A model generated the notes under the pieces. The model was not told the DNA's origin and did no database searches. It saw only the letters and a program-made list of their open reading frames with translations. Below, piece by piece: positions 17,351-19,359 of a stretch of DNA of 64,000 nucleotides (its first letter is position 1; every line of letters starts with the position of its first letter). Location: NCBI GenBank assembly GCA_000421325.1, contig ATWQ01000007.1, positions 1 through 64,000 on the forward strand, in the 5' to 3' direction. The DNA comes from an alpha proteobacterium SCGC AAA536-K22. Lineage in GTDB: Bacteria > Pseudomonadota > Alphaproteobacteria > Puniceispirillales > Marisalimonadaceae. Made by a program: the position numbers and the translations under genes.

Positions 17351-18126
17351 ATGGGAAAAAAATTATAGAAAAAAGTGAAATATTATTTCCTAATTTATCT
17401 TTTTACAATAGAGCTGTAAGTTACCCATATTTTGCTCCTGATTATTCGTTTTCCTTTTATAAGGGTAAATTTGTAAAAGGAATTTGTCTTGATTTAGATA
17501 AAAGAATACCTATTTTGTCAGTTGGATCTAACAGGTCACCATATCAATTAAAAAAAAAGTTTTCGTTGGATCAAGACATATGTGTTACCCCAGCTACATT
17601 GTATGACTCAGATATAGTTTATGCAGCGTCTTTATCAGCTTATGGATCAATGCCTGCCACACAATGGCCTTGTAAAGGGAGTAAAGTTGAACTTAACGTA
17701 TTATGGCTTAATGAAAGTCAATTGGACATAATGCACTTAAGTGAGGCCTTGGGAGTTGCTTATAATTTTGTAAAATTGAAATTAGGAACAGTAAAAATTA
17801 AGGAATTTGAGTGGCATAAGGAAATATATGGCTATGCTTCAATACCAGGTGTGTTTCCATTTAATAAAAATATTCCAAAAAGACTGTCAGCTTTAAATGC
17901 TAAAAATACTAAACTAGAAGGTATTTATGAAAGTGAAGCACTTATTTATCTAAAAAATTATTTAGATGTTAAAAATAAAAACTTATTAGAATGGCTAGAA
18001 AAAGTAATAAATGAAAAAAATTATAGGCTTGGAATACACGAGATACTTAAAACTAAAGCTATTAAACCTCAAAATCCTAACTGGGAGGTACTTGAAACAA
18101 GTTTAAAAGGTGAATTGATTATTTAA
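17351..18126 (+). CDS. Conserved-looking protein of unknown function, 5' end disrupted or non-AUG start
   Basis: The clear reading frame runs to 18126, with a TTG at 17515 as its first standard start codon. However, the same frame is open back to 17350 and reads like protein (LSFYNRAVSYPYFAPDYSF, then KGKFVKGICLDLDKRIPILS), so the gene probably begins earlier. An ATG at 17351 would join this frame if the A7 run at 17356-17362 had one more A; as written it stops after five codons. The core contains SVGSNRSP, SLSAYGSMPATQWP and a C-terminal acidic/lysine-rich part. The GSN loop recalls gamma-glutamylcyclotransferase-type folds, but I do not assign a function. It follows argC by 22 bases. Confidence 0.7.
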
Positions 18127-18340
18127 CTACCTAACTATTAGGAATATTAGCCGATTAAATGTATAAATTATAACTATTATTAAAAAAATGAACTAGATAG
18201 GAAGCATTATTTTTATTTCAGTTATTTACAGAAGAATTATCTATCTTATTGATAGTTAAAAACATAAATCAGTTAAAAATAAGAAATACACCCTACTTAT
18301 AAGCCATATATTTATAAATATAGTCTTTTTAAAATTATAA

Positions 18341-18355
18341 TGATAATTATTATCA
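18341..18355. promoter_or_regulatory. Fur-type operator, exact 7-1-7 palindrome
   Basis: The bases TGATAAT-T-ATTATCA form a perfect 7-1-7 inverted repeat identical to the published Fur 7-1-7 core (TGATAATnATTATCA). Taken over 19 bases (18336-18354), the site matches the classical Fur box GATAATGATAATCATTATC at 17 positions. It lies 183 bases before the proteorhodopsin ATG and about 100 bases before the predicted -35. Binding by a Fur/Mur-family protein is inferred. Confidence 0.6.
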
Positions 18356-18458
18356 ATAAATAAATCATTTAAAATCAGTATGTTAACAAAAAAGTCAAAA
18401 AAAAAACGTATTTTATTAACTTTTATTTGTTGCCTAACTTTAAATTCCAATTTATTGT

Positions 18459-18503
18459 TTGCCTAATTATGCTAATTTTGCATAGAATCTAGCAGTTGCT
18501 AGA
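18459..18503 (+). promoter_or_regulatory. Candidate proteorhodopsin promoter with palindromic operator
   Basis: A -35-like TTGCCT (18459-18464) and -10-like TAGAAT (18483-18488) are separated by 18 bases, with a TG just upstream of the -10. Immediately downstream, TCTAGCA-GT-TGCTAGA (18488-18503) is a perfect 7-2-7 inverted repeat that would cover the transcription start. Such placement suits a repressor site. The binding factor is unknown, and the promoter is a sequence-only prediction. Confidence 0.45.
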
Positions 18504-18537
18504 AATTAAACATGACAAGTATAAGGGGAGTTTATAA

Positions 18538-19305
18538 ATGTCTTTTTTAAAATATTTAATACCGGCTACATTATTAGCTGGACTTCCAACACTTGCTTAT
18601 GCAGGATCCCACGCTAGTGGTAACCTGGATCCAAGCGATTTTGTTGGTATAAGTTTTTGGATAATATCTATTGCCATGGTTGCAGCAACTGTTTTTTTCT
18701 TAATGGAATCATTGAGAGTTAAAGGCAAGTGGAGAACCTCTCTAGTTGTTGGTGCTCTTGTTACATTAGTTGCGGCTGTTCACTATTTTTACATGAGAGA
18801 TGTGTGGGTTTCCACAGGTGCATCACCTACTGTATTTAGATATGTCGACTGGATTATTACAGTTCCATTACAAATGATTGAATTCTATCTAATATTAGCT
18901 GCGTGTACAGCAATAGCAGGTGGAGTTTTCTGGAGATTATTTGTTGGTTCATTAGTAATGTTAATCGGTGGATATCTTGGTGAAGCTGGTTTTATTAACG
19001 CTACACTAGGTTTTGTTATTGGAATGGCTGGTTGGATATTCATTCTTTATGAAATCTTTGCAGGTGAAGCTAGTAAAGTTAATGCAGCCGAGGCTCCAGA
19101 TTCAGTTAAAACAGCTTATAACACTATGAAATGGATTGTTACTATTGGATGGGCAATCTATCCTATAGGTTACTTTATGGGATATATGGCTGGTGGTGCA
19201 GACGCTGACAGCTTAAATGTTGTTTATAACTTAGCTGACGTAGTTAACAAAATAGCTTTCTGTTTGGCTATATGGGCTGCTGCTACTGCAGAATCAGACG
19301 CATAA
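18538..19305 (+). CDS. Proteorhodopsin, blue-absorbing light-driven proton pump
   Basis: A 255-residue seven-helix rhodopsin with a cleavable-looking N-terminal signal (about residues 1-22, ending AYA). Key positions, offset +7 from the reference proteorhodopsin, are all present: His82 (counterion partner), Asp104 (proton acceptor) in RYVDW, Thr108, Glu115 (proton donor) and Lys238 (retinal Schiff base) in VVNKIAF. The DTE pattern marks a proton pump. The spectral-tuning residue equivalent to 105 is Gln112, which in proteorhodopsins gives blue absorption, typical of clear open-ocean or deeper water. It has a strong ribosome binding site and its own terminator, and it is followed by the retinal-synthesis genes. 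Confidence 0.98.
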   Translation: MSFLKYLIPATLLAGLPTLAYAGSHASGNLDPSDFVGISFWIISIAMVAATVFFLMESLRVKGKWRTSLVVGALVTLVAAVHYFYMRDVWVSTGASPTVFRYVDWIITVPLQMIEFYLILAACTAIAGGVFWRLFVGSLVMLIGGYLGEAGFINATLGFVIGMAGWIFILYEIFAGEASKVNAAEAPDSVKTAYNTMKWIVTIGWAIYPIGYFMGYMAGGADADSLNVVYNLADVVNKIAFCLAIWAAATAESDA

Positions 19306-19325
19306 ATTCTAATTTATAAATATTA

Positions 19326-19359
19326 AAAGCCTGTAGGTAAAACTACAGGCTTTTTTTTT
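19326..19359 (+). terminator. Rho-independent terminator after proteorhodopsin
   Basis: An 11-bp perfect stem, AAAGCCTGTAG (19326-19336) pairing with CTACAGGCTTT (19343-19353), has a 6-base loop and runs into nine T residues (19351-19359). It begins 20 bases after the proteorhodopsin stop. This is the clearest intrinsic terminator in the window, and it separates the opsin transcript from crtI, which starts 40 bases further on. Confidence 0.92.

Follow-up and report, generated by a model that had tools for sequence, protein, structure and literature searches.

The window, that is, the whole stretch of 64,000 nucleotides analysed here, harbours a proteorhodopsin (PR) gene preceded by a 411-bp gap, which extends from the end of a plus-strand gene at 18126 to the start of PR at 18538. 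On the other side, a terminator-like hairpin separates PR from the next gene, and therefore the opsin is probably its own transcription unit. The genes following PR and the hairpin resemble crtI, crtB, crtY and blh (names assigned by inspection), and the relatives of the host place it among the SAR116 alphaproteobacteria. The features considered below are listed one per line.

18336..18354, plus strand: 19-bp Fur-box register, sharing 17 of 19 bases with GATAATGATAATCATTATC
18341..18355, no strand assigned: Fur-type 7-1-7 palindrome TGATAATTATTATCA, upstream of the PR gene
18430..18435, plus strand: predicted -35 hexamer TTGCCT (TTGCTT or TTGATT in relatives), putative promoter element
18453..18458, plus strand: predicted -10 hexamer TATTGT, 17 nt from the -35 hexamer (TATTGT in 28 of 29 upstream regions, TACTAT in one)
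18488..18503, no strand assigned: 16-bp dyad TCTAGCAGTTGCTAGA in the predicted PR leader (perfect 7-nt arms in 28 of 29, the arms being of 6 nt in the remaining one)
18538..19305, plus strand: proteorhodopsin gene, 255 amino acids, the presumed target (Pfam PF01036, E 9.4e-44)
19325..19354, plus strand: terminator-like hairpin and T run between PR and the next gene (consensus scan only)

The palindrome TGATAATTATTATCA agrees with the 7-1-7 consensus TGATAATNATTATCA at all 14 defined positions, and the sequence GATAATGATAATCATTATC, to which the 19-bp register was compared, is the Fur box within the crystal oligonucleotide quoted in PMC4506495. Both matches had been claimed in an earlier, sequence-only reading of this DNA and are borne out by sequence comparison. 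The site was given there as 18336-18355; the palindrome itself occupies 18341-18355, and the five bases of the left flank are surplus. The additional claim that it falls in the longest gene-free stretch of the window is valid when ORFs of at least 90 amino acids are taken as genes (411 bp, 18127-18537) and fails at cut-offs of 60 or 120 amino acids.

PR was found in 28 of the 37 same-genus genomes (that of the host included) and in three more, giving 31, and 29 of these have enough upstream DNA; the upstream regions of L024 and L037 were left out, as their contigs end before the palindrome. Nine of the 29 carry the palindrome with no mismatch, 16 with one, three with two and one with three. 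Thus, loss of the palindrome in close relatives, a prospect raised by the sequence-only reading, is not what was found, 28 of the 29 having retained it with no more than 2 mismatches. On the PR gene tree, its 15 columns require 19 parsimony changes, eight of which are an A/G exchange at a single position, compared with a median of 55.5 for the 15-mers in 18208-18425. Upstream of the core promoter, i.e. within that interval, no other 15-mer changes as little. The DNA directly to the left of the palindrome changes fast (85 changes in 18313-18327), and the region 18418-18537, nearer to PR, is more conserved still than the palindrome, as expected of a promoter and leader.

The promoter-like pair TTGCCT-17-TATTGT (18430-18458) is present in all 29 same-genus PR upstream regions, the pattern having been defined after inspection of their alignment. 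This pair may well represent the PR promoter, in which case the start of transcription would be expected at about 18465. The centre of the palindrome lies exactly 82 bp before the start of the -35 hexamer in 27 of the 29 upstream regions, including that of the deep branch G061, and in the other two the distance is 86 bp (a decayed site) and 89 bp. Only one gap interval occurs in the 74 bp of the alignment between the palindrome and the -35 hexamer, compared with ten in the 77 bp to the left and nine in the leader. Such fixed spacing ties the palindrome to the PR promoter. With its centre at about -117 from the predicted start, the palindrome does not overlap the predicted RNA polymerase site. 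Hence, the description of the site as an operator in front of proteorhodopsin, proposed by the sequence-only reading, is retained with respect to the link to the opsin and dropped in the sense of a classical operator lying over the promoter. A promoter located further upstream, over the palindrome, was also considered and rejected, since the fast change on the left suggests that none is conserved.

A different symmetrical element is present in the predicted leader. The dyad TCTAGCAGTTGCTAGA is identical in 26 of the 29 same-genus PR leaders, and the remaining three read TCTAGCTTTAGCTAGA (with both arms changed), TCTAGCATTTGCTAGA and TCTAGCAATGGCTAGA; it would represent either a hairpin in the RNA or another regulator site. 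In another SAR116 family (L043, L044, L047, L056-L058, L060 and L061), the PR leaders contain a perfect palindrome, CTCAACGTTGAG or CTCAATATTGAG, which overlaps the ribosome-binding stretch GAGGAG before PR and shows two-sided change between the two forms. These palindromes possibly participate in the translational control of PR.

Genome-wide comparison was performed by pattern search with TGATAATNATTATCA, the matrix scan described below being confined to the window. The draft genome (1,995,180 bases in 92 contigs, 79.8% complete) contains two sites with no mismatch to TGATAATNATTATCA and four more with one. The second exact site, C1:60490, is situated 116 nt before the gene of an mbfA-like iron exporter (445.3 bits with the iron exporter model, just under the cut-off of 450), and the only fur gene found (C1:63692-64045) lies about 3 kb away in the same cluster. 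As for the sites with one mismatch, C1:60530 is a second mbfA site, C1:61642 is located 21 nt before a ferric-transporter-like binding-protein gene and C5:24861 falls within a gene. Equal or better sites scattered in coding DNA, which had been named as a point against the proposal, were looked for, and both exact sites of the genome lie outside coding DNA. The last one-mismatch site, C8:82915 (L008:2916-2930), was observed 23 nt before an acyltransferase-like gene heading a two-gene set, another copy of which is present on C5.

Within the 40 genomes of the genus, the word TGATAATNRTTATCA gave 109 strand hits compared with 21 for the reversed control. It occurs at 73 distinct places, whose contexts were derived from mechanical ORFs and the coordinates of PR and fur and then classed by hand: 24 lie before PR, 27 in the iron cluster, 17 in other intergenic regions and five in coding DNA. 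The iron cluster comprises mbfA, bfr, fbpA, the gene of a DUF4856 protein with its small neighbour, and an adjoining dehydrogenase gene, whereas the 17 other intergenic places precede a pair of UbiH-like and aldehyde dehydrogenase genes, a LysR gene, a family of 161-amino-acid proteins, a TorD-like gene and single cases. A site with no more than 2 mismatches was detected before 15 of the 17 close fbpA homologues, 11 of the 12 mbfA genes, all nine usable bfr genes (one further row was left out, the gene having run off the locus) and all 11 DUF4856 genes. No such site was found before the other two close fbpA homologues or any of the five distant ones (∼50% identity).

A matrix built from 51 iron-gene 21-mers, with PR excluded, assigns 26.6 to the PR site, 27.5 to the mbfA site and 22.1 to the fbpA site. 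The PR site has the best score of the window, the next non-overlapping place reaching 13.9; since the training sites were chosen for their likeness to the consensus, the score is to be taken as a consistency check rather than independent proof. The promoters of bfr, mbfA and fbpA were read by eye, and that of fbpA appears as TTGACA with the Fur-type site inside the spacer, where repressing sites usually lie.

Several other elements came to light at these iron loci. In addition to the Fur-type sites, the upstream regions of mbfA and bfr (L006 and relatives) share, as judged by eye, a common CAATGACTTAT about 50-60 nt before the gene and 21 nt after TTATCATT. A DUF4856 protein (L160:2318-3766; PF16148, E 2.5e-11), encoded beside bfr, is likely to be iron-related. 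Meanwhile, no Pfam match at E 0.01 was obtained for three proteins of 161, 172 and 89 amino acids (L125:2042-2524, L154:6528-7043 and L159:5315-5581, respectively). Fur-type sites precede their genes by 19-36 nt, and these are possibly new iron-response genes.

Some deep branches lack the site or retain it only in decayed form, and other families do not have it. In G031, a member of the same genus which has a Fur gene, the PR palindrome has decayed to three mismatches, and in the relatives L200-L204, whose PR is 71-77% identical, no site with at most 2 mismatches is present within 400 bp; two of these, L203 and L204, carry the same divergent 65-amino-acid gene that is described below. In 21 genomes of the same order but of different families (one with only 131 nt of upstream DNA), no site with at most one mismatch was found, and one of the genomes has a site with two, so PR in general does not need this site. 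The notion that it is a feature of all proteorhodopsins was accordingly rejected: in a survey of 80 PR loci, 79 of which had usable upstream DNA (the remaining one only 14 nt), a site with at most 2 mismatches was found within 400 bp in 18. Seventeen of these 18 loci belong to the SAR116 group of the host, many being the same contigs as those of the genus genomes, and the eighteenth, L224 (2 mismatches at -179), looks like a chance match. The palindrome is thus a feature of one genus: it is fixed in the main clade, where all 26 of 26 have it, and its occurrence at the base is patchy.

Could such a palindrome have arisen by chance in AT-rich DNA? The intergenic stretch around it has a G+C content of only 21%, and loose matches are as frequent as in controls: with at most 2 mismatches to TGATAATNATTATCA, three matches were found in the window against 1.99 expected, and 78 in the 2.0-Mb draft genome against 77 for the reversed control pattern. 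As the genome holds no more loose matches than the control yields, only the tightest class of matches is informative, and here the picture differs, because an exact match turned up in just one of 300 first-order Markov resamples of the 64-kb window, and when the 411-bp intergenic stretch was resampled 20,000 times, none appeared. Together with the conservation in 28 of 29 relatives, which refutes it, this leaves the chance reading with a negligible probability; the palindrome TGATAATTATTATCA is real and beyond chance. It might nevertheless have served another gene. In G028, G031 and G061, which represent deep branches (L040, L041 and L130), an intact gene for a membrane protein of 65 amino acids runs divergently to PR, its start lying close to the left of the palindrome; the palindrome could accordingly be a relic of the regulation of this small gene. 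Yet only these three of the 40 genomes have an intact copy; in G035 the gene is broken, and in 36 it was not detected (weak remnants are present in G001 and G022, i.e. L020 and L017), and the palindrome persists where it is missing or broken. Moreover, no other 15-mer of the upstream half is as conserved as the palindrome, which has also kept its distance to the PR promoter, whereas G031 retains the 65-amino-acid gene with a decayed palindrome. The relic explanation is therefore considered very improbable, and, as the palindrome has outlasted the divergent gene, PR is likely to be its client. An unseen small RNA, suggested by the sequence-only reading as another possible target, finds no backing: no Rfam family was matched in the window, the strand of the 411-nt intergenic region folds no better than its shuffles (z -0.21), and conservation to the left of the palindrome is poor.

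As regards the regulator, the sequence-only reading had pointed to the absence of a Fur homologue as a weakness to look for, and a Fur gene is in fact present (E 2.1e-36), being the single Fur-family gene found in the draft. The best PDB match of the host Fur is Magnetospirillum Fur (4ray, E 2.8e-46), which was crystallised on CGCGATAATGATAATCATTATCCGC, a GATAAT-type Fur box, and in which Tyr56 and Arg57 read the bases and Lys15 enters the minor groove, as described in PMC4506495. According to the alignment, the host protein keeps the DNA-reading Tyr and Arg of the recognition helix, and Lys15 is replaced by Arg. Fur thus seems to be the best candidate regulator, with Irr as the main alternative, because Irr controls bfr and mbfA in Bradyrhizobium, where both genes are repressed by it (PMC4902296). 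That an iron regulator other than Fur, either Irr or a protein of the Rrf2 type, binds the palindrome instead appears improbable to us. In rhizobia, bfr and mbfA number among the targets of Irr. Irr-like and Zur-like relatives of Fur do occur in the genus and could read a similar word; these other Fur-family proteins match best with the Irr and Zur models, below the cut-offs (e.g. E 6.3e-32 with the IrrA model for the G014 protein, below its 150-bit cut-off). For a protein of the Rrf2 type it may be argued that the outer bases of the palindrome, TGA and TCA nine bases apart, resemble the RirA box. Against both stands the identity of the word with the Fur 7-1-7 consensus, together with its occurrence at the ferric-transporter gene beside fur. 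In addition, no Irr gene was found in the draft genome of the host (79.8% complete), and its one Rrf2 gene heads suf-like genes, the nearest match to this region among those listed (C3:85081, 2 mismatches) lying inside the sufB-like gene.

Taking these data together, we regard binding of Fur at 18341-18355 as highly probable, control of PR by the palindrome as only slightly less so, and Fur-mediated regulation of PR via this site, with the sign left open, as probable. Given Fur binding and control of PR, the sign leans, by analogy with known promoters, towards the positive. Under this proposal, Fur loaded with Fe2+ would bind the palindrome under iron sufficiency and, acting at a distance of about 117 bp before the start, would raise opsin transcription, either by aiding RNA polymerase or through the displacement of a silencing protein; under iron scarcity, Fur would leave and opsin expression would fall. 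The Blh-type enzyme, which produces retinal from beta-carotene, needs iron, so that making the opsin only when iron permits retinal synthesis would be sensible. The boxes of Fur-activated Neisseria genes precede the start by about 100 bp and that of Helicobacter pylori oorB by 130 bp, whereas in repressed genes they overlap the promoter; both recruitment of RNA polymerase and anti-repression are described as modes of activation (PMC3788343). The PR box, at about -117 from the putative start, has the spacing of ∼100 bp or more of Fur-activated promoters, and this fit favours activation. Likewise, a site 82 bp away from the promoter pair suits distal activation or anti-repression by Fur better than the blocking of RNA polymerase.

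The opposite sign, i.e. repression of PR by Fur, with PR rising under iron scarcity and light energy replacing iron-rich respiration, is judged rather unlikely, even though repression is the best-known role of Fur (PMC3788343) and links between iron limitation and PR expression have been reported for Photobacterium angustum (Koedooder 2020) and for diatoms (Marchetti 2015), both as cited in PMC9040609. Repression would require either an upstream promoter over the palindrome or DNA looping. It is at odds with the distance of 82 bp to the start of the -35 hexamer in 27 of 29 genomes, with the fast change on the left, where an upstream promoter would sit (85 changes, 18313-18327), and with the top 12 matrix scores of the window, among which there is no second site between 18356 and 18537. 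Some evidence was also counted against Fur control as such: besides the missing or decayed PR sites, the fbpA homologues that lack a site and the Irr-like and Zur-like proteins described above, PR of the SAR116 isolate IMCC1322 is reported to be constitutive with respect to light, being expressed with and without it (PMC12262181). The activation model in its full form, in which PR would belong to the core of the Fur regulon and iron-loaded Fur would activate it from a distal, phase-locked site, thereby tying light-energy capture to iron sufficiency, is offered tentatively, the odds being close to even and slightly against it. On a more general level, the sharing of one kind of site between PR and the genes of iron uptake and iron storage suggests that iron supply may help to set the amount of PR in this genus.

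Fur sites are of a known kind; PR as a target of one is, to our knowledge, new. A search of the open-access literature returned no recognised report of a Fur site at PR, the only paper in that search combining “proteorhodopsin” and “Fur box” being one on SAR11 (PMC3090418), in which the SAR11 genome is reported to contain no classical box, and rhodopsin is absent from the main text of the SAR11 iron-limitation paper PMC2864753. The controls that switch on bacterial proteorhodopsin are poorly known, and over much of the ocean life is jointly limited by iron and light. A conserved Fur site locked to an opsin promoter would connect the two in a direct and testable manner. Whether rhodopsin acts as a backup when respiration is iron-poor or is a luxury that cells with sufficient iron can afford depends on the sign of the response; activation, if true, would oppose the expectation that rhodopsin replaces respiration under iron shortage.

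Compared with the Fur boxes of iron uptake genes, the PR site represents the same word, common to the fbpA-like, mbfA-like and bfr upstream regions of the genus, and the same presumed regulator. The iron uptake boxes, however, overlap the promoter and serve iron genes, while the PR site is located ∼117 bp before the predicted start and its target is a light-driven pump. In its distal position it is similar to the boxes ∼100-130 bp upstream of norB, aniA and nuoA of Neisseria and oorB of H. pylori, as described in PMC3788343. The same source lists Escherichia coli ftnA and Salmonella hilD as further Fur-activated genes; ftnA has several Fur sites, whereas PR has one strong site, with activation proposed here from sequence. 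Finally, the “energy regulon” linked to Fur that was proposed for SAR11 Pelagibacter (PMC3090418) shares with our proposal the idea that Fur joins light and energy genes; the motifs reported there are relaxed ones, with no classical Fur box, while the PR box described here is exact, conserved and located beside the opsin.
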